Of a stretch of 64,000 bases of DNA, positions 31,679-44,138 are shown piece after piece. Position numbers and translations under genes: made by a program. The notes under the pieces were generated by a model. It did not search any database, was not told the origin of the DNA, and was given only the letters and a program-made list of their open reading frames with translations. Origin of the DNA: Armatimonadota bacterium (lineage in GTDB: Bacteria; Armatimonadota; Zipacnadia; UBA1398; JAKPQA01); assembly GCA_029547025.1 (NCBI GenBank), contig JAKPQA010000051.1:1-64000 (forward strand), in the 5' to 3' direction. Position 1 is the stretch's first letter, and each line of letters starts with the position of its first letter.

Positions 31679-31710
31679 CCGGAGCCGGCAGATCGCCCTG
31701 CCGGCTCCGG
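31679..31710 (-). terminator. Terminator hairpin after the CsgG-like gene
   Basis: A perfect 13-base-pair stem (31679-31691 with 31698-31710) around a six-base loop lies 27 nt after the stop of the minus-strand CsgG-like gene and upstream of the GH5-like gene. It should end transcription of the 40-31.7 kb cluster. Confidence 0.75.
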
Positions 31711-31737: not shown

Positions 31738-32649
31738 CTACTCCTCGGGCTCAGCCCCAATGGCACGCTGGCCCACCTTGACCTCGTCGCCCGCCCGCAA
31801 GCGATCGAATCGCCGCTGAACGAGCCGCCGTCGCTCGTCAGGCTTGTTCTTGAGCCGGCGTTCCTCCTCCGGCGTGAGGAAGACGCGGCACAGCGCCGAG
31901 CTTGGACCCACCTGTTCGGTAGCCACGATCATCACGCCCGCAAACCGCCCCGGAGTCACCCCCGTCGCGGGGTCGAAGTCCGACGCGCGGAAGACACTCA
32001 GCACGGTTCCCTCTTTCACGCCGGCCATGGTGCCGATGCTGATCTTGATCGCCAGGGCGCCATCATCGAGCTCCAGGATCTTGCCGCGGGCGGCGAACAT
32101 GTCGCCCGCCATGACCTCGATGGCCTTGTACCCGGCGCCGATGCGCATGTCGTCCCAGCTTGGGTACTCCTTGCTCTTCCGGACCGTGCCATCGCCCACG
32201 CCGTACATCTCGATCTTCGTCGTTCCGACGTTCACCATACGGCACGAGATCCGCGCATGGACTTCGCGCTGGTCATCATCCGTCGGGAGCTCGAGCGTGA
32301 CCAGGCCAATGAGCTCGGCCTTCAGCGCCTTGCCGGCCTTGGCCGCCTGCCGGGCATCCATTGGGATCGAGCGGTCGAGGAACTGCTCCTCAAGCACATC
32401 GTCGAGCCGAGCTCGCTCCACGAGCTTGAACGCCTTGGTCTCGAACACGGCTTTCCAGAGTCGATCGTCGAGGCGCGCCAGCACATCATCCTGCACGTTC
32501 TTCCCCGCATAGCGCATGGGGAGGAACGCGGCGACCTTCTGCCTCTTGCCGCCGCGGGCGGCCAGGCTATCCTCCTTGGGCTGCGCCTGGGCGACCGCTG
32601 TCACCAGCACGACGCCCAGGCATGTCAGTCCCAGCATCCGTCTTACCAT
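31738..32649 (-). CDS. Secreted CsgG/FlgT-like envelope protein
   Basis: A 303-residue exported protein (signal peptide about 1-22, ending AQAQ). Residues about 35-175 resemble the CsgG-like nucleotide-free Rossmann domain: FKLVERARLDDVLEEQ then a spaced AAKAGKALKAELIGLVTL, the usual way such proteins start. No lipid-anchor Cys is visible, unlike true CsgG. Residues about 195-250 (GKILELDDGALAIKIS, GVKEGTVLSVFR) resemble the C-terminal SH3-like domain of FlgT. ATG at 32649 follows GGAGG. It lies 24 nt downstream of the next, functionally similar gene and ends the cluster at a hairpin terminator. It likely acts in the periplasm; a pore role is not supported by what I see. Confidence 0.72.
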   Translation of the reverse strand: MVRRMLGLTCLGVVLVTAVAQAQPKEDSLAARGGKRQKVAAFLPMRYAGKNVQDDVLARLDDRLWKAVFETKAFKLVERARLDDVLEEQFLDRSIPMDARQAAKAGKALKAELIGLVTLELPTDDDQREVHARISCRMVNVGTTKIEMYGVGDGTVRKSKEYPSWDDMRIGAGYKAIEVMAGDMFAARGKILELDDGALAIKISIGTMAGVKEGTVLSVFRASDFDPATGVTPGRFAGVMIVATEQVGPSSALCRVFLTPEEERRLKNKPDERRRLVQRRFDRLRAGDEVKVGQRAIGAEPEE

Positions 32650-32673
32650 CGCCTAAGCCTCCTCTGCGCGCCC

Positions 32674-34047
32674 CTACTTCTCGAAGACCTCGATCTCCGC
32701 CACATCGTCGTTGAAGCTCTTGATGCGGATCCACCGAACCTCGTCCAGCAGCTTCTGGATCTCATCGGCGGTCAGGCCATACACGGTGAGTGACCCGCGC
32801 TTGGCGTCCCGATCGAACTGCTTGTCGGCCCGATCGCTCACCCTCAAGTCCGCTGCCTCGGCCTGCTGTCGCAGCTCCTTCTCCACGGCATCCAGGGTGG
32901 ACGCACGCTCCAGGTCGTTGATGACCAGCCGCACGGAGAGGATCTGAGCCTGGATCGCCATGCCCTGGATCTGGTTGACCTCCACAGGCGGGAACGGCAC
33001 GAGGCGCAGAGCCGTCGCGAGCAGGTCGGAGCCGAGTCGCGACGTCACGCGGAAGCTGACGCGACCCGCCTTGAAGTCCGCATCGCCCAGCACGACCTGC
33101 TTGACCATGTCGAGCTTCTGCAGCTCCTTGGCCAGAGCCTCATACTGGTCTCTCGAGTACAGCTGCGAGAAAGTCACCTCGGTCTCGCCCTCGGGCGGAA
33201 AAGCCGCCAGAAGATCGGCCAGAGCCCCCTCGCATGCCGCCTTCGACGCCCGGCGGGCACCAATCTGGATCGACGTGTCCTGCTCGGTTGCCTCAGCGCT
33301 GGCCGCACCACACACCTGCCCGGTCTGTACCATGATGGCTTTGAGGCTACACGAGGCCCGGACGATCAGCCGCTTGCCCTGCTTGCCCCCCTGCTCGGCG
33401 ACAGCCTGGCCGATGATCAGCACGTCCGCCTTCTCTCGCTTGGCCACCTCGATGGCCTTCAGGCGGTTCACCTCGCCGGTGTCGATACCGATCAGGTCCT
33501 CGACACCCGCCCCCACCGCCGTTCTCACGGTGTACCCGGCTGCCGCCAGGGCATCCTCGACGACCCCTTGAGCCTCCGATCCCCCGAGAGCAGGCTCGTC
33601 CACCACGGTCTGCTGCACCACGCACATGATGGCCAGCGGTACGACCTTCACTCCCGCCGCGATGAGCGCCAGGTTGACCCCACTCACGTCCACCGTGATC
33701 GGAACCTTCACCGTGCAGCCATTGGCGTCCGTCTGCTCCATGCGCTCAGCGTCATACTCGATGATGAAGGTCTCGTCGGCAGCCTTGGCCACGATCTCCT
33801 TCTCGATGGTCGCTGCGTGTTTCGCCCGTACGGCCTCATCGGGTACCAGCTCAGCCACGGCCTGGCTGACCGCGTCCTTATAGGCCGCCGTCAGCGCGCC
33901 GTAGGCATCACCCCCCGCGTCGACGCCGACCGCATCGTAGACCTTCTCCTGCTGGCGAACGCGCGCCCATGCGCTCGAACCCACGGCCAGCACGCCCGCG
34001 AGAGCCACCAGCAGCGCACACGTCGCCCTAGTCGGTCTCAGTGCCAT
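32674..34047 (-). CDS. Exported protein of FlgT/LPP20-like type, function unknown
   Basis: A 457-residue exported protein (signal peptide about 1-29). The first domain has DAYGALTAAYKDAVSQAVAE, a pattern seen in LPP20/FlgT-like N-terminal domains. The middle (about 130-270) is alpha/beta with ADVLIIGQAVAEQ and resembles a CsgG-like or FlgT middle domain. Two beta-alpha-beta segments follow (about 280-360 and 375-455). No catalytic motif is visible. ATG at 34047 has a GGGAGGT site seven bases upstream. Together with the CsgG/FlgT-like protein 24 nt downstream it suggests a periplasmic or outer-membrane complex, in an organism for which no flagellar gene is seen here. Confidence 0.7.
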   Translation of the reverse strand: MALRPTRATCALLVALAGVLAVGSSAWARVRQQEKVYDAVGVDAGGDAYGALTAAYKDAVSQAVAELVPDEAVRAKHAATIEKEIVAKAADETFIIEYDAERMEQTDANGCTVKVPITVDVSGVNLALIAAGVKVVPLAIMCVVQQTVVDEPALGGSEAQGVVEDALAAAGYTVRTAVGAGVEDLIGIDTGEVNRLKAIEVAKREKADVLIIGQAVAEQGGKQGKRLIVRASCSLKAIMVQTGQVCGAASAEATEQDTSIQIGARRASKAACEGALADLLAAFPPEGETEVTFSQLYSRDQYEALAKELQKLDMVKQVVLGDADFKAGRVSFRVTSRLGSDLLATALRLVPFPPVEVNQIQGMAIQAQILSVRLVINDLERASTLDAVEKELRQQAEAADLRVSDRADKQFDRDAKRGSLTVYGLTADEIQKLLDEVRWIRIKSFNDDVAEIEVFEK

Positions 34048-34155
34048 TCAGCTACCTCCCACTTCCCACCATGGAGAGAGCAATCCGGTAGACGGGAAAC
34101 CCCGTCCGATGGCCTCAAACCGCGCGCACACCGACCCGCGTCCCTGTCCTATGAC

Positions 34156-37017
34156 CTACTGACCCTCGTCGGCACGTGCCGTCAGTGCGCAGCGGAATCC
34201 GATGTTCGGTGCCCTCGTCCCTGGGACCACATGCCCGCGGTAGATCGACATGCACTCCTCAGGCGTGCTGTCGTAGGCACCGCCACGTATCACCCTCTCC
34301 TTCCCCTGAGGGGGACCCAGAGGGTTGTCCCGATCCCTCTGATATGGGCCGTACCAGTCCTGCACCCACTCCCAGACGTTTCCTGCCATATCGCAAACGC
34401 CGAATGTACTGACATTGCCCTCGCGCTTCCCGATGGGCTCCACGTTGCCCGCGGCCACCGGCTGGCCCTCAGCCTCCCGGTCGCGCTTCTTCCGGGTGTC
34501 GGCAGCGGTGCCGGGGGGAAGGCAGTTGCAGCGTGACGGGTCGAAGTCTGGACCCCACGGGTAGAAGGCGTTGTCCAGCCCCCGCGCAGCGTGCTCCCAC
34601 TCCGCCTCAGTGGGAAGTCGCTTGCCGCACCATTCGGCATAGGCCTTCGCATCATCCCACGTGACGTTGGTGACCGGAGCTTGCGGATCACCCGCAGGCG
34701 CTGGCCGGCCGGTCTCGGCAGCGAAGACCGCATACTCCTCATTGATTACGGGATATTCATCAATAAAGTAACCGTTGAGCCGCACCGAATGTCCCGGCCG
34801 CTGGTCGGCCGGCCCTGCGTCATGGCCCATGGTGAAACGGCCCCCGGGGATGAATATCATCCCCATCGGCGCTGCGACCAGCTCCACGGACATGGGAGCC
34901 GCACTCTTCACCTCGATGGTCTCCGCCGCTTTGAAGCCGGCGTTCTTGGCCACCACACGGTAGGATCCGACCGGAAGCTCCACCGCGCACGGCGTTGTGC
35001 CCATCGGCTTGAGGTCGTTCGGCTTCGCGGCCGGAGCGATGCTCAGCTCCAGCTTGTCGGGTACCGAGGCGAACTCCACCTTGGCCGTGGGTACCGTCGT
35101 CGCCCCGCCACCCTGTGTGAAGTCGCGGACCACATCCACGCCGTCAGGCACATCGATATCACCCAGGAACCGCAGATCCTTGATCTCAACCTTATGCGTG
35201 CCGGGCTCGATACCGTTGATCTCAACGACGCCGTTCACCGGCTCGTAGCTCTTGCCGTCCACCCGGACCGTCTTGGCCGCGAGGCCCACCACCAGGCGAA
35301 GTGACGTCGTCTTGAACGCCACCTTGGCCTCCCTGCCGGCCTCTACCGTAACCTGTTGCTTGTCGTCGATCTTCGCTCCTCGCAGCGCCACATCGTACGT
35401 GCCCGGCTTCAGACGGAGCACGAGAGGCTCCGCAGCCGAGAACTCGTACGGTCTGCCGTCCACCGTGAGAGTCGCGTCCGGCGCCTTGGCCGTGATCGAC
35501 AGCTCGCCAAAGTACTGCTTCCAGCCAAAGCTCACCGTAGCCGTCTCGCCGGCGGCCACGGTGACAGTCTTGCGGTCGATGACGTCCTCGCCCAGTCTAT
35601 ACTCGAGCTCATGCTCGCCGGGGGCCACCACCACCGTCTGACTCGTACGCCCCGCACCGACCTCCAACGCGGCACCGTCCAACAGCGCTCGCGCCTCATC
35701 CAGGTCGACCGTTACGGTGATGTCTCCGAAGAGGTTCTTGCGGAGGAGCTCGATGGCCGCTGGCTTGTGCGCTTCGATGGCCACCGGGACGCGCACCACG
35801 GCATTCTGATACTCGACTTCCACGGGCTGTTCGCCACTACCAACGGGGTCAAGGGATCCCTTCCCCTGCGCGATGTGGACAAGAGTCCACCGGTCCTCAC
35901 CAACGTAGACGTGGTTGATATCCAGGTCGGTCGCGATATCGAGTGTCGACAGCTCCTCGAGAGCCCGGATGTCGATGGTCTCAACGCGGTCGGGCTCGAG
36001 AGTGACCTTGCGCTTCACCTGAACGCGCTTGCCATCGATCTCGAACCGGATCCGGACCGTATGGTCGCCGGGCCGCACATCGCGTACGACCATAGGCCCG
36101 ACCTCGCTCTTGCGCTGCTTGTACTCGTTGTCGATGAAGTACTCGCAGTCATCCAGGTCGCTGACCGTGCACACCAACCCCGATCGTCCCTCCGCCACCT
36201 TCGGAGGCGGCGGAGGGGGGGCTCCAGCCGCATCGATCGCCACGACAACCTGCTCGCCGGGCTTGACGACCACCCACTGGGGCTTCAGCAGTCTGCCCTC
36301 GACCCTCAGTGCAACCCTGTGGTAACCGGCCGGTATGTTGCCCAGAGACGCTGGGGTCTGGCCCCGCTCGTGGCCATCGAGGTCGATGGCATAGCCGGAA
36401 GGCGTGCTCGACACGCTGATCGAACCTTTGCCGTCGGGCCTCAAGACGCTCCGCACAAGGTCGGCGAGACCGGCCTGATCGCCTCCTTCTCGGGCCAGGA
36501 GGATCTCCTGCTGGGGGCCCAGGACATAGGTGACGGGAATCGCGATCGAGCGCTTCTTGCCCTGGTAGTCGCCGGGCCGAAATCCCGCATACAGCGGCGG
36601 TTGTGCGTCAACGGGCTCGTAATAGATCGACTCGCGTAGGGTCTGCCAGTCCTTGCAGCCCGCAAACCAGCCCTTCTGCTCCAGGCGGGCGGCCTGCTCC
36701 CCGGCCTGCTTGTGCGGCAGCACCAGCACCAGCTTCACAGGCTCGATCTCCGAGGCAACCTCGCCAAGGCCCGAGAGTCCGGCCAGAATGTCGGCCTGCG
36801 TGAGGCCCTGCTTCTCATAGGGGCCGAAGAAGTGGACGATGGCGACCTGGCCATCCACGAGCTGCCCAAAGGTCGTGGGCCCACCGTCTGAGTACGACGA
36901 AAGCCCATACCCCATCGCCGCCGCAGGTAGCTTGTCACCCACCGCCAGATCCTGAGCGAGCGCAGAGCCCCAGATCACCAGGAAGGACAGTGCCAGTACG
37001 CTTCGGCGGAGACGCAC
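34156..37017 (-). CDS. Secreted multidomain protein: thioredoxin-like fold, PEGA repeats, SUMF1/FGE-like domain
   Basis: A 953-residue exported protein. Signal peptide about 1-21 (ending SALAQ). Residues about 25-190 resemble a peroxiredoxin/thioredoxin fold (VAIVHFFGPYEKQ) without a CxxC pair. From 199 on there are several PEGA-type beta modules (STPSGYAIDLDG, IPAGYHRVAL, LKPGTYDVAL, IEPGTHKVEI). Residues about 718-953 form a SUMF1/FGE-sulfatase-like domain: FIPGGRFTMG, VTWDDAKAYAEWCGKRLPTE, YPWG, NVWEWVQDW, RVIRGGAY and GFRC. The paired catalytic cysteines of true formylglycine-generating enzyme are not both present, so a binding or other role is likelier. GTG at 37017, after GGAGGTGG, begins the signal peptide; the frame is open to 37176. 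Confidence 0.85.
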   Translation of the reverse strand: MRLRRSVLALSFLVIWGSALAQDLAVGDKLPAAAMGYGLSSYSDGGPTTFGQLVDGQVAIVHFFGPYEKQGLTQADILAGLSGLGEVASEIEPVKLVLVLPHKQAGEQAARLEQKGWFAGCKDWQTLRESIYYEPVDAQPPLYAGFRPGDYQGKKRSIAIPVTYVLGPQQEILLAREGGDQAGLADLVRSVLRPDGKGSISVSSTPSGYAIDLDGHERGQTPASLGNIPAGYHRVALRVEGRLLKPQWVVVKPGEQVVVAIDAAGAPPPPPPKVAEGRSGLVCTVSDLDDCEYFIDNEYKQRKSEVGPMVVRDVRPGDHTVRIRFEIDGKRVQVKRKVTLEPDRVETIDIRALEELSTLDIATDLDINHVYVGEDRWTLVHIAQGKGSLDPVGSGEQPVEVEYQNAVVRVPVAIEAHKPAAIELLRKNLFGDITVTVDLDEARALLDGAALEVGAGRTSQTVVVAPGEHELEYRLGEDVIDRKTVTVAAGETATVSFGWKQYFGELSITAKAPDATLTVDGRPYEFSAAEPLVLRLKPGTYDVALRGAKIDDKQQVTVEAGREAKVAFKTTSLRLVVGLAAKTVRVDGKSYEPVNGVVEINGIEPGTHKVEIKDLRFLGDIDVPDGVDVVRDFTQGGGATTVPTAKVEFASVPDKLELSIAPAAKPNDLKPMGTTPCAVELPVGSYRVVAKNAGFKAAETIEVKSAAPMSVELVAAPMGMIFIPGGRFTMGHDAGPADQRPGHSVRLNGYFIDEYPVINEEYAVFAAETGRPAPAGDPQAPVTNVTWDDAKAYAEWCGKRLPTEAEWEHAARGLDNAFYPWGPDFDPSRCNCLPPGTAADTRKKRDREAEGQPVAAGNVEPIGKREGNVSTFGVCDMAGNVWEWVQDWYGPYQRDRDNPLGPPQGKERVIRGGAYDSTPEECMSIYRGHVVPGTRAPNIGFRCALTARADEGQ

Positions 37018-37185
37018 GGGTCCCGCCACCTCCGATCGGACTCGGGCGCCCCGAGCCGGTAGCCGGGTGCGCTCAACCACATGCGAAGAACCCTCCGGGC
37101 GGATCTCCGACCTGTCCCCCAAACGCCGAACGCCGATCAACGGCCAGATCACCGCGGATCCTCCCCGATGGGCCACGCCGGGTCC

Positions 37186-38826
37186 CTAGCTGTCAACGAC
37201 GTCGAAAGCGAGGACGGCGCCATCGGCGCCCCCCGAGATCACGAAAGGACCGTCTGACACTCCCGCCACGACGCACAGATCCCCCTCGACCGACTGGAAA
37301 GCCACGGGCACCACGGCGTCGCCACCGACGTACCAGACGCAGACGCCTCCACGACCGCCCGATGCCACCAGATCCGGCGTCAAGAACGACACCGACCGGC
37401 AGCACGCAGTCCGGGCCGGTCGTGCCGCCCTCCCCGAGTGGGCATCCCACGCCCGCACCGACCCATCGGCGCAGCCGGCAACCACCCACGCACCGTCGGG
37501 CGAGAACGCCACCGACGTCGGTTCGCCCCCGGACGACGGCAGAATGAGGGCCTTGGTGCCCGTCTGGACATCCCAGAGCGCGATGTCTGAGTTCGAGACA
37601 CAGGCGTGTGCGAGCCGTGGGGCCGTGGGGTCGAACGCCAGAGCCCGGGTCCAGAACGAGCCGGCCAAACTTCCTCGGTACTCCAGCGAGTTGGCGTCGA
37701 ACAACCACACGCTGTTCTCGCACCCGCCGACAGCAAGCCAGTTGCCCGCAGGGGTGGACGCCAGGGCGCGGGGCCGCTTGGCTCGAAGGGGCAGCTCCCC
37801 CCTGGGGTTCCCCGTGGCCGTATCGAACAGACGCACGAGGCCGTCGCGCCCCGCGCACGCCAGCGTGGCCGATCCCGGGAGGAAGGCCAAGGCCATGGCA
37901 CCCGATGCGCCGGCGGCAATCGAGGCACCGCCGCTGCCGCCCGGATGCCGGATCTGCACCGACCCAGAGACGTCACTGGTGGCGATCCACCGGTGGTCCA
38001 GGCTGGCAACCGCCGCCACAACCGCGGCCTCGTGGGCCCCAAAGGACCTCGCTGCCTGGAGCGACTTCTTGGGTACCGGCGTCACAACGGGACCCACGGT
38101 ACCCCCATCCGACTCAATGGGCGCACCGACGGCTGGCGCCTCGTCCTCGAACAGCAGGGCCGCGGTCTTCGGTGAGGCATCAAAAGCGTCCATGGGCCCG
38201 AACTGGATGGCGCCACTGGTGCTGACCACGAAGTCCTCAGGGAGTTCGTCGCGAGCCGTGCCGACCACCGGGGGCTGGGCCGTCCCTCCGGCCTGCAGCG
38301 GGCAACCGGCACCGGCGCAGCCCTGGTGGCGACGCCAGCAGGACGCGTGCTGGAGCGTGTGGCACGCCGGGCACACCACGACCTCGTCGCGCACGGCATA
38401 CCCGCCACCGCAACGCGGGCACGGACCCACCAGTCCCGAGAGCACCCCCGAGTCCACGCCCAGCCGAACCGGCACGATGGTCCCCGGGTCGCCGGCGATG
38501 TACAAACGCCGGTCGCGCGCGCTCGCGAAGCCCGCCGCGCCCACCGACGACATCCCCACGGCCTCCTCATCGACCGGCAACATCCCCACCCCGGTCTCGG
38601 GGACGGAGGCGCCGGTCTCGTCGCCGGGAGTGTCGATGAACCCCCCCAGGTTCAGACCCGCCAGCATCGAGCCCTGCGGCTCAGACGCCTCATCGCCGGC
38701 CGCAGTGGGCGGCGAGATCGAGTCCTGCCGATAATCCCCAAACTGGAGACCCGTCCCGCTGTCTTCGTCCTCCCCCGCCTCATTCAGGGGTATGAGATCG
38801 AGGTCATCGTCGTCGCGCCCGTGCAT
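37186..38826 (-). CDS. Prokaryotic RING-finger plus WD40 repeat protein
   Basis: A 546-residue cytoplasmic protein. An acidic N-terminus (HGRDDDDLDLIP) and low-complexity region lead to a zinc-finger block at about 136-175: CPRC, then CPAC, HASCWRRH and two further Cys, matching the prokaryotic RING finger family 1 pattern. A linker is followed by about six WD40 blades from residue 265 (VASLDHRWIATSDVSGSVQI, AFLPGSATLACAGRDG, AFSPDGAWVVAGCADGSVRAWDA). ATG at 38826 is preceded by GGGGAGG. RING plus WD40 is a eukaryote-like pairing; E3 ligase activity is unproven, and a protein-interaction scaffold is the safer reading. It is followed after about 170 nt by the PEGA-SUMF1 gene in the same direction. 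Confidence 0.83.
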   Translation of the reverse strand: MHGRDDDDLDLIPLNEAGEDEDSGTGLQFGDYRQDSISPPTAAGDEASEPQGSMLAGLNLGGFIDTPGDETGASVPETGVGMLPVDEEAVGMSSVGAAGFASARDRRLYIAGDPGTIVPVRLGVDSGVLSGLVGPCPRCGGGYAVRDEVVVCPACHTLQHASCWRRHQGCAGAGCPLQAGGTAQPPVVGTARDELPEDFVVSTSGAIQFGPMDAFDASPKTAALLFEDEAPAVGAPIESDGGTVGPVVTPVPKKSLQAARSFGAHEAAVVAAVASLDHRWIATSDVSGSVQIRHPGGSGGASIAAGASGAMALAFLPGSATLACAGRDGLVRLFDTATGNPRGELPLRAKRPRALASTPAGNWLAVGGCENSVWLFDANSLEYRGSLAGSFWTRALAFDPTAPRLAHACVSNSDIALWDVQTGTKALILPSSGGEPTSVAFSPDGAWVVAGCADGSVRAWDAHSGRAARPARTACCRSVSFLTPDLVASGGRGGVCVWYVGGDAVVPVAFQSVEGDLCVVAGVSDGPFVISGGADGAVLAFDVVDS

Positions 38827-40439: not shown

Positions 40440-43400
40440 ATGTCAGGAGACTGCTGCCACGACGGCCGCAATTGCGGCGAGCCCGGGGCGGTAAACCGCC
40501 GAGGATTCCTCCGCAGGGTGGCTGCCGGCACGGCTGCCCTCGGCCTCGCCGAGCTGGCCATGGCCTCGGCTGCAAGCGCGGCGCCGCTTGACCATCTGCC
40601 GAGTCCCGACCTGTCCGCCCTGAGGCGCTACCCGGTGGGCCGCCCCCGCGTCTACACCGGGGCTCACACCGAACACGTGCGGATGCCGATCGGTGGGATC
40701 GGCACCGGTACCGTGTGGCTCGATGGCGACGGGAAGCTCGGGGTCTGGCAGATCTTCAACAACTACGGAGAGGACCGTATCCCCGACAGCTTCTTCGCCG
40801 TGCGGGTCGCGGCCGAGGGTGATGATCCGGTCCTGCGCGTTCTCCAGACCGCCCCCGAGCCCGGGTTCCCAGCGTTCCCCGACCTCGAGTATGAGGGCGG
40901 CTATCCCATCGCACGGCTCACATTCCGCGATCCCAGCATTCCCGTCGAGTTCCGACTCGAGGCACTCAACCCGATGATCCCGCTGGACACCGAGAGTTCC
41001 TCGATCCCCTGCGCGCTGTTCCGCATCACCGCGACCAATACGGGGAGACGCCGCGCCCGCGTGAGCGTGCTCGGCGCCTGCCAGAACGCCGTGGGCAGCC
41101 AGGGCGCCGGGTCCCAGATCACGGACCGGCGCTTCCCCGGGTATGGCGGCAACGTGAACACGACCCACCGTGGCAGGGCCCACACCCTCGTGGCTATGGA
41201 GCGGCACGAGGACCCGCCCGAATCGGGTCGGCTCCATGTGCGCGATGCCTCAGGACAACGCACAGCGGGGCCCGAGCTCCTGTGGCTCAAGCGCCTGCAG
41301 AGCGCCCGGGAGACGGCCGCTGCGGGCCGGCGCGAGACCGAGGTCGTGGAGGAGCTCGTCCGGCTGCTCGACCAGGGCGGAGGCGTCGTGATCGGTGGCG
41401 TCACCCCGGATTTCATCGCCGGGCTCGAGGCCGCCAGGCAGCGCATCGCTTCCGGGGACCACCTCGAAGTCTTCGACGATTTCGAGTCGGGCACGTATGA
41501 CAAATGGACGGTCACCGGAACCGCTTTCGGAAACGAACCCCACACGGGCACGTCGCCCAACCAGCAGCCTGTCAGTGGCTTCCGCGGGAAGCGCCTCGTG
41601 AACTCCTTCGTACCCAACGACGAGCCCCAAGGCGAGATGCTCTCCGTGCCCTTCACCATCCGGAGGAGATACATCGGCTTCCTGATCGGCGGAGGCTCCC
41701 ATGCGCGCCAGACGTGCATGAACCTGCTCGTCGATGGCACCGTCGTTCGCACCGCACGCGGCCGCGACCTGGAGGAGCTCGCCCCAGTCTCCTGGGATGT
41801 CGCCCAGTTCGTGGGGAAGGAGGCCCGCCTGCAGATCCTCGACCACAACTCCGGCGGCTGGGGCCACATCAATGTCGACCACATCGTGTTCTCCGACGTG
41901 GCTCCCGACCTGCTGATCCGGCTGGACGGCCCCAGTGCGGCGCTCGCCGAGCTGTGGGCGCCACACCTGGCCGGCGCGCGGCCCGCCACGGCCGATGACG
42001 TGCCGGCGAAAGCCGTCCCTCCCGCGGGGCTGAGCTTCACCGGCCTCCCCGCCTGGACCATCGCGCGGTACGTTCATCTCGATGGGTTCGCCCCATCGCC
42101 CGATGGCCTTCGCGTGCTCGCCACGGGACCCAACGGCGCCCCCGTGCTGCTTGGAGGCACCCTGGGCAAGGCCGCCGTGGTACTTTCGTTGGCCGAGGAA
42201 ATGCCGTGGGACTGGGCCCGGCGGGCTGTCGAGTACGTGCGCGGAGCTCGTCTGAACCAGGGCGAGACGATCGTCCCGGCGGCGCCCACCTTCGGCACCA
42301 TGGCGCTGGGCGTGGACTCCGCCTCAGCCGTGGCGTGCGCGAGCTGGAATAGCCCCGAGGTCTTGGCCGCTCACTGGCGGCTCAGGGACGCTCCCGCGGG
42401 TCCCGAACGTACCGAACCAAGCCCCATGGGCGAGACACACAACGCCGCCCTCTGTGTGCCCATCATGCTGGAGCCGGGCGAGGCGAAGAGCACCACGTTC
42501 ACCTTGGCCTGGCATTTCCCGAACGTGCAGCGGTTCGACCACTTCGGGAACTACTACACCCGCCGGTTCACATCGGCCCGGGCTGTGGCCGAGTACGTGG
42601 CTGAGCGTCTCCATGGCCTCTGGAACCGCACGGAGCTCTACCACCAGACGCTCTATCAGTCGAACCTGCCTGAGGAGTTCATCGATGCTATGAGCTCCCA
42701 GAGCGTCATCTTCCGAGGGCCGACGTGCTGGTGGAGTGAGGAGGGCTACTTCGCCGGCTACGAGGGCTGCTACGGATGCTGCCCCCTGAACTGCACCCAT
42801 GTCTGGAACTATGCCCAGACTCACGCTCGCCTGTTCCCTGAGATCGGCCGAAACCTACGGGTGTCCGACCTGATCACCTACATCCACCCCACGGGTGAGA
42901 CCTCGCACCGGCAGCACAGCCCCCATGGGGCATTCATCGATGGCCACTGCGCCGTCATCGAGGCCACACTGCGCGAGCATCAGCTGTCGCCCGACATCTC
43001 GTTCCTGCGACGCGTGTGGCCCAACGTGCGCAAGGCCGTCGACTGGCTCATCGAGGCCATCGACAAGGATCACGATGGAGTCCCCGCGGGCCACCAGTGG
43101 AATACCTACGACTGCGCCGTCTCCGGCCCGAACACGTTCATCGGGTCCCAGTATCTCTCGGCTCTCGCCGCGGGCGAGAAGATGGCCGAGGCCATGGGCG
43201 CGCCCGCCATCGCGGCCCGGTGGCGCGCCATTCGCATGGCCGGCATGGCGAATCAGGACGCGCAACTGTGGAACGGCGAGTACTACATTCAGATCCCCGA
43301 GAACCCGCCGGCCCACGACTACAACGGTGGGTGCCACAGCGACCAACTCCTCGGCCAGTGGTGGGCCCACATGCTGAACCTGGGGTACCTGTTCCCGCGC

Positions 43401-44138
43401 CACCGTGTCCGGCAGGCACTCCAGAGCGTCATGAAGTACAACATGAAGGACAACTTCGTGGGCTTCACTCAGGCGCCGCGCCGCTACGTCCCCGACGATG
43501 AAGGCGGGCTGCTGATGTGCACTTGGCCCAAGGGAGGCCGTCCGGATCCGTTCACTATCTACTCCGATGAGGTGTGGACGGGCATCGAATACGCGACGGC
43601 CGGCCTGATGGTCTACGAGGGGATGATCGACGAGGCCCGGCGTATCGTCCGCACCGCGCGCTCGCGCTACGACGGCCGCCTGCGGCCCGAGCTGAACAGC
43701 GGGCCGGGCGGGAACCCCTTCAACGAGCTCGAGTGCGGCAAGTTCTACGCGCGAGCCATGAGCTCGTGGTCCCTGCTCATCGCCTGCCAGGGGATGGTAC
43801 TCGACGGCCCGGCCGGTCTCATCGGCTTCAAGCCCCGATGGCGGCCCGAGGACCATCGCTCGTTCTACACCGCCCCCGAGGGCTGGGGGCTGTTCGTTCA
43901 ATACCGCGAGGCCCGCCGCCAGGTCTCTCGGATCGATGTGCGCCACGGCCGCCTCCGCGTGCGGGAGCTTGTCGTGCAGGCTCCGCCGGTCGCCCCCGCG
44001 ATGCGTGTCCACGTCCGCGCCGGGGGCCGCCGCGTCCGCGTCACCGCATCGCAGCAGGCCGACGAGGTGCGGATCCGCTGCCCGAAGTGGATGACCATTC
44101 CGGAGGGGCAGGAGGTCGAGGTCGAGCTCACGTGGTAA
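40440..44138 (+). CDS. Tat-exported GH116 family glycosidase with inserted beta-sandwich
   Basis: A 1232-residue enzyme of the GH116/non-lysosomal glucosylceramidase family, whose bacterial members are beta-glucosidases or beta-xylosidases. A twin-arginine signal (NRRGFLRRV, then an Ala-rich core to about 48) directs export. The N-terminal beta domain opens MPIGGIGTGT. The (alpha/alpha)6 catalytic part from about 690 has the hallmark CCPLNCTHVWNYAQTHARLF, DGHCAVIE and KDHDGVPAGHQWNTYDCAVSGPN, where the latter holds the likely acid/base Asp. Residues about 340-485 (FESGTYDKWTV to NVDHIVFSD) are an extra jelly-roll module like those appended to GH32 enzymes, inserted inside the N-terminal half. 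A start at 40440 follows GGGAG. It is divergent from 39633-40274. Confidence 0.9.
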   Translation: MSGDCCHDGRNCGEPGAVNRRGFLRRVAAGTAALGLAELAMASAASAAPLDHLPSPDLSALRRYPVGRPRVYTGAHTEHVRMPIGGIGTGTVWLDGDGKLGVWQIFNNYGEDRIPDSFFAVRVAAEGDDPVLRVLQTAPEPGFPAFPDLEYEGGYPIARLTFRDPSIPVEFRLEALNPMIPLDTESSSIPCALFRITATNTGRRRARVSVLGACQNAVGSQGAGSQITDRRFPGYGGNVNTTHRGRAHTLVAMERHEDPPESGRLHVRDASGQRTAGPELLWLKRLQSARETAAAGRRETEVVEELVRLLDQGGGVVIGGVTPDFIAGLEAARQRIASGDHLEVFDDFESGTYDKWTVTGTAFGNEPHTGTSPNQQPVSGFRGKRLVNSFVPNDEPQGEMLSVPFTIRRRYIGFLIGGGSHARQTCMNLLVDGTVVRTARGRDLEELAPVSWDVAQFVGKEARLQILDHNSGGWGHINVDHIVFSDVAPDLLIRLDGPSAALAELWAPHLAGARPATADDVPAKAVPPAGLSFTGLPAWTIARYVHLDGFAPSPDGLRVLATGPNGAPVLLGGTLGKAAVVLSLAEEMPWDWARRAVEYVRGARLNQGETIVPAAPTFGTMALGVDSASAVACASWNSPEVLAAHWRLRDAPAGPERTEPSPMGETHNAALCVPIMLEPGEAKSTTFTLAWHFPNVQRFDHFGNYYTRRFTSARAVAEYVAERLHGLWNRTELYHQTLYQSNLPEEFIDAMSSQSVIFRGPTCWWSEEGYFAGYEGCYGCCPLNCTHVWNYAQTHARLFPEIGRNLRVSDLITYIHPTGETSHRQHSPHGAFIDGHCAVIEATLREHQLSPDISFLRRVWPNVRKAVDWLIEAIDKDHDGVPAGHQWNTYDCAVSGPNTFIGSQYLSALAAGEKMAEAMGAPAIAARWRAIRMAGMANQDAQLWNGEYYIQIPENPPAHDYNGGCHSDQLLGQWWAHMLNLGYLFPRHRVRQALQSVMKYNMKDNFVGFTQAPRRYVPDDEGGLLMCTWPKGGRPDPFTIYSDEVWTGIEYATAGLMVYEGMIDEARRIVRTARSRYDGRLRPELNSGPGGNPFNELECGKFYARAMSSWSLLIACQGMVLDGPAGLIGFKPRWRPEDHRSFYTAPEGWGLFVQYREARRQVSRIDVRHGRLRVRELVVQAPPVAPAMRVHVRAGGRRVRVTASQQADEVRIRCPKWMTIPEGQEVEVELTW

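Follow-up and report, generated by a model that had tools for sequence, protein, structure and literature searches.

Organization of the locus

The window, that is, the whole stretch of 64 000 nucleotides analysed here, comprises bases 1–64000 of a 75-kb contig from an Armatimonadota MAG of the class Ca. Zipacnadia (6.3 Mb, 96% complete). Four open reading frames are present on its minus strand, and an independent codon-usage gene call returned the identical four: gene A (37186–38826, 546 residues), predicted to encode a cytoplasmic protein with a Prok-RING_1 domain and a WD40 propeller; gene B (about 34156–37017, within an open frame of 34156–37176), encoding a large exported PEGA-SUMF1 protein; gene C (32674–34047, 457 residues), encoding an exported FlgT-like protein; and gene D (31738–32649, 303 residues), encoding an exported CsgG/FlgT-like protein. 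Past gene D, the last of the four, the minus strand carries a GC-rich perfect hairpin (31679–31710) with a 13-bp stem and a 6-nt loop. An earlier sequence-only reading had described these four genes and the hairpin, as well as the CsgG-like, PEGA-SUMF1 and RING-WD40 domains, and is confirmed in this respect by the reading frames, the codon-usage call, the sequence itself and Pfam. The hairpin sequence is without a T-tract, and a terminator scan found no canonical terminator at the locus, the spaces between the four genes included. A large GH116-type (DUF608) gene (40440–44138) lies directly upstream of the cluster on the opposite strand.

The gaps between A and B, B and C, and C and D are 168, 108 and 24 nt, respectively, and for this reason tight coupling is evident for C and D only. 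On the other hand, the location of all four genes on one strand at these distances, with no terminator found between them, and the export of three of the four proteins would also suit a single undescribed envelope system, in which C, D and B would form an exported complex and A would be its cytoplasmic regulator.

Genes C and D and their relation to FlgT

Gene C encodes an N-terminal FlgP/LPP20/FlgT_N-like domain (about 33658–33948, minus strand), a TolB/FlgT_M-like domain (33178–33636, minus strand) and a small α/β C-terminal region (about 32677–33177, minus strand), the last of which is an addition with respect to FlgT. A Pfam search of the 457-residue protein gave no match, and a BLAST-level search with C, covering 61 relatives and the GTDB contigs, found almost nothing, so that a profile was needed. 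The C-family profile matched FlgP from C. jejuni (9hmf_C; E = 4.9e-11) and from Vibrio (8z5n; E = 0.004), in both cases over the N-terminal domain. FlgP/LPP20 proteins are lipoproteins of that domain, whereas C contains further domains and has no lipid anchor, its Sec-type signal sequence being without a lipobox. An alignment-based AlphaFold model of C (pLDDT 74.7) had FlgT as its top PDB match (3w1e; E = 1.8e-8 over 397 columns). Profile and fold comparison therefore bear out the FlgT/LPP20-like nature of this protein, which had been guessed by eye.

Gene D encodes a TolB/CsgG/FlgT_M-like domain (about 32095–32544, minus strand) followed by a FlgT_C-like barrel (about 31771–32094, minus strand), and its product likewise carries a Sec-type signal sequence that lacks a lipobox. 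It matches the CsgG family of Pfam above the cut-off (PF03783; E = 8.9e-6), and the D-family profile matched both CsgG (3x2r; E = 4.5e-16) and FlgT (3w1e; E = 0.005); a PDB search with a three-row D profile gave nothing useful. The alignment-based AlphaFold model of D is of modest confidence (mean pLDDT 69.6) and has FlgT as its top PDB match (3w1e; E = 4e-8, 298 columns aligned).

Profile–profile comparison confirms homology between the TolB-like domain of C and that of D (hhalign probability 96.7, E = 4.5e-10). According to the models, C covers the N and M domains of FlgT and D the M and C domains, and the two together correspond to a split FlgT, all three domain types being present only when C and D are combined. 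Like FlgT of the Vibrio H-ring (3w1e, 8z5n), both proteins are without a lipobox and are predicted to be periplasmic. FlgT is a single polypeptide, whereas here the domains are divided between two genes, both of which encode a TolB-like M domain; other phyla also have a D–C fusion. Whole-chain TM-scores of C and D to FlgT are low (0.26–0.37) because the domains are differently placed or poorly modelled, and the likeness is therefore a domain-by-domain one.

The match of the D family to CsgG raises the alternative of a CsgG-type outer-membrane secretion channel formed by D, in which C would be the periplasmic gate and B or other neighbours the secreted substrates. The D family resembles the curli channel (3x2r, 4uv3) over the TolB-like core, and the alignment shows that D relatives from Omnitrophota and Auribacterota retain a Gly-rich hairpin region. 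In D from the window, however, the alignment lacks some 20–25 residues corresponding to the first transmembrane hairpin region of CsgG, the AlphaFold model contains no such hairpin, and a FlgT_C-like barrel is found in place of the membrane hairpin and lipobox. The sequence-only reading had noted that CsgG-like proteins form pores or periplasmic assemblies; since the hairpin and the lipid anchor are both absent, a pore or secretion role is unlikely for D, and a pore model was rejected. The order of its fold matches, with FlgT followed by LpoB, PelC and CsgG in its pre-pore form, also argues against the channel arrangement as a whole, which is considered to be highly improbable.

The known LpoB and PelC proteins are lipoproteins. 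After FlgT, the TolB-like domains in the C and D models have some of their best fold matches in these two and in GNA1162, which would be compatible with a soluble protein of the periplasm that regulates cell-wall or exopolysaccharide enzymes. This is nevertheless a very unlikely role for C and D, as the full-length matches go to FlgT rather than to LpoB or PelC, neither protein is a lipoprotein and the gene calls at the locus include no PBP or Pel genes nearby.

Distribution of the C–D pair

The C profile has matches in 59 of 291 Armatimonadota genomes, the weakest of which cover the FlgP-like N-terminal part only. The matches listed from a scan of GTDB contigs include Desulfobacterota, a Thermotoga MAG, KSB3, Acidobacteria, Saprospiraceae, Poribacteria, Auribacterota and Omnitrophota, among others. 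In all, 75 C-family loci are listed, the window included, from at least eight phyla, and at least 40 loci were found outside the Armatimonadota genomes; the neighbouring genes were called by a home-made codon-usage script and typed with profiles, and some of the contigs are short, with ends nearby. Among these 75 loci, D lies no more than three genes from C, in the same orientation, in 30 and is fused to it in 11, one or the other being the case in 39, and about half of the C loci listed show no neighbouring D. Given that the loci were collected with C alone as the query and that genes of the CsgG family are uncommon (33 places in 46 genomes of the class, the one in the source genome being D itself), the association between C and D is not a matter of chance. 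The fused forms, mostly in the order D then C, were seen in Acidobacteria, Saprospiraceae, KSB3 and Zipacnadia, while adjacent genes occur in Desulfobacterota, Omnitrophota, Auribacterota and a Thermotoga MAG. This conserved and little-known pair, present in many phyla, is the real finding of the locus; no description of it, nor of a PEGA-SUMF1 protein together with CsgG, was found in the open-access literature.

A separate gene for an FlgP-like protein neighbours C in 15 of the 75 loci listed, forming with the C–D pair a trio of the FlgO/FlgP/FlgT type. The H-ring that lies beneath the outer membrane of Vibrio is built from FlgO, FlgP and FlgT, FlgO being the CsgG/TolB-like partner of the other two (PMC7990780). 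FlgO, known from Vibrio and Arcobacter, is an outer-membrane lipoprotein, unlike C and D.

The structural likeness of C and D, which is closest to FlgT and FlgP, and the presence of FlhA in the source genome (E = 1.6e-256) could indicate that C and D are accessory parts of the flagellar motor of this organism, a genuine equivalent of the H-ring or basal disk. No flagellar genes are found near the locus, however, and the presence of C does not track flagella across the phylum: FlhA occurs in 43 of the 59 C-bearing genomes, compared with 204 of the 291 Armatimonadota genomes overall, and one genome (G027) contains two C–D pairs and no FlhA. Fused C–D proteins are moreover encountered in Saprospiraceae, which are generally non-flagellated. 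A dedicated flagellar function is for these reasons distinctly unlikely, and unlike FlgT the C–D pair is not tied to flagella.

Caspases flank C in four genomes among the 75 loci listed (G046, G060, G066 and G255). SLH-caspases adjoin C or C–D in three of them (L030, G046:C221, 2358–7410; L065, G060:C35; L064, G255:C438), and in the fourth a caspase-SUMF1 fusion adjoins C (L095, G066:C299, 1–2520). The link between this envelope pair and caspases is a recurring one, and the caspase and SUMF1 neighbours hint at possible cargo of a scaffold. In Geobacteraceae and related Desulfuromonadales (L202, L208, L210, L211, L213 and L216–L218), the gene order around C is constant: recA and a gene for a PilT-like ATPase lie upstream of it, and it is followed by genes for a TPR-CsgG protein and a second CsgG-like/Fn3 protein and, farther away, by an AlaS-like gene.

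Genes A and B

The start of gene B is most likely to be the GTG at 37017, as judged from the signal peptide that follows and the GGAGG upstream of it. Pfam identifies PEGA repeats (about 34882–36426, minus strand; E = 1.6e-20) and a C-terminal SUMF1/FGE-sulfatase domain (34186–34863, minus strand; E = 2.6e-52), the latter also matching PDB entry 6muj (E = 5e-33). Although this domain resembles the formylglycine-generating enzyme, B has serine at the first of the two cysteine positions of the active site (RGGAYDSTPEEC, compared with RGGSYLCHDSYC in FGE from S. coelicolor), and for this reason it is probably a binding domain rather than one that modifies its target by forming formylglycine. The protein contains a further conserved domain, absent from the earlier description, which spans about 175 residues at the mature N-terminus (36427–36951, minus strand) and has no match among Pfam or PDB profiles; a redoxin-like assignment made by eye was dropped after the same searches. 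Elsewhere, this domain was found only in PQQ-propeller/SLH proteins of Armatimonadota (L164, L165, L166, L169 and L171), and a search with the whole of B returned generic SUMF1 domains only.

The source genome contains a second PEGA-SUMF1 gene (L174, G000:C80, 4943–12115). The cluster around it is conserved across the order (L172, G001:C66; L173, G002:C582) and includes a TPR protein and exported proteins that are rich in Met and Gly (GMMGG) and without a Pfam match. Gene order is conserved to a greater degree in this cluster than in the A–B–C–D cluster.

Gene A encodes a WD40 propeller (about 37189–38064; Pfam E = 3.2e-19) and a Prok-RING_1 domain (PF14446, 38314–38424) with a score of 29.1 bits (E = 9.5e-7), exactly at the curated cut-off. 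There is one copy of Prok-RING_1 in the source genome. RING and WD40 are each common in the class, their matches coincide in none of its other genomes, and their fusion in A is a singular case. With its zinc-binding RING, identified at that cut-off, A resembles a RING E3 ligase, but inspection of its neighbours in the window revealed no E1, E2 or Ubl genes, and hence no evidence for a ubiquitin-like system at the locus. Among defence-family models, the WD40 region of A matched HEAT-ARM_XIII only, and PADLOC gave no system. The usual setting of Prok-RING in the class is exemplified by islands from other Ca. Zipacnadia (L182, G021:C369, 710–8397; L181, G032:C185, 3148–11204), in which ubiquitin-like (YukD/ubiquitin), ThiF/E1 and JAB-LysM proteins accompany Prok-RING_1 membrane proteins, a setting unlike that of gene A.

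The distribution of A and B weighs against the inclusion of all four genes in one envelope system. The order A–B–C–D occurs in none of the 74 other C loci listed; RING, WD40 and PEGA are beside C in none of these 74 and SUMF1 in one, as the caspase fusion of G066. Genomes of the same order gave no match to C and none to RING, the source family being represented by one sequenced member. Co-location of RING and WD40 in the manner of A is absent from the other genomes of the class, and the N-terminal domain of B keeps other company. Caspase-SUMF1 (FGE-sulfatase) and caspase-WD40 proteins are known in bacteria, caspases being frequently combined with WD40 or FGE-sulfatase domains (PMC3501461), and the fusion beside C in G066, which shares SUMF1 with B, could be taken in favour of the four-gene system; B itself has no caspase domain and differs from such proteins in its PEGA repeats and extra N-terminal domain. 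Across the 291 Armatimonadota genomes and the 40 loci listed elsewhere the four genes were not found together, and A and B adjoin C–D in the source genome only. A conserved four-gene system is not supported, and a single system formed by all four at this locus is unlikely. The uncharacterized envelope assembly proposed in the sequence-only reading is plausible for the conserved C–D pair and not for the cluster as a whole, and its link to a eukaryote-like regulator finds no support, since RING-WD40 flanks the pair nowhere else in these genomes and loci.

Proposed role of the C–D pair

The reading towards which the evidence leans, albeit by no wide measure, is that C and D constitute a periplasmic scaffold resembling a split FlgT, with a use that is not limited to the flagellum and with lineage-specific partners. 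C, with the N and M domains, and D, with the M and C domains, may act as a two-protein module. Following export to the periplasm, they would most likely co-assemble beneath the outer membrane as a scaffold or ring, by analogy with the assembly of FlgT with FlgO and FlgP around the flagellum of Vibrio; the scaffold proposed here is probably not confined to that organelle. The envelope process that it serves may vary with the adjoining genes, which are SLH-caspases or a caspase-SUMF1 protein in other genomes and gene B in this one.

At this locus, B is best read as a lineage-specific partner of the pair, and A less surely so. B would be an exported ligand-binding partner of the scaffold, while A would be no more than a cytoplasmic scaffold protein with a loose connection to the others. 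The link between B and the pair comes from one genome and one indirect SUMF1 connection, the caspase-SUMF1 protein beside C in G066 being the sole outside indication that SUMF1 works with C–D.

A broader view may be put forward tentatively, as a possibility that falls short of being probable: C–D, often with an FlgP-like protein, could represent an ancient outer-membrane ring or scaffold of many phyla, with a use that goes beyond flagella. The FlgO–FlgP–FlgT rings of flagella were perhaps recruited from it, and it would serve as a plug-in platform for exported effectors or sensors such as caspases, SUMF1 and PEGA proteins.

FlgT and FlgP are known only as components of flagellar rings. That a pair with this fold is conserved in different phyla, in some of them as a fusion, and also occurs in flagella-free genomes suggests a wider and perhaps older role in the cell envelope, and C–D provides a defined gene pair that is amenable to deletion and imaging.
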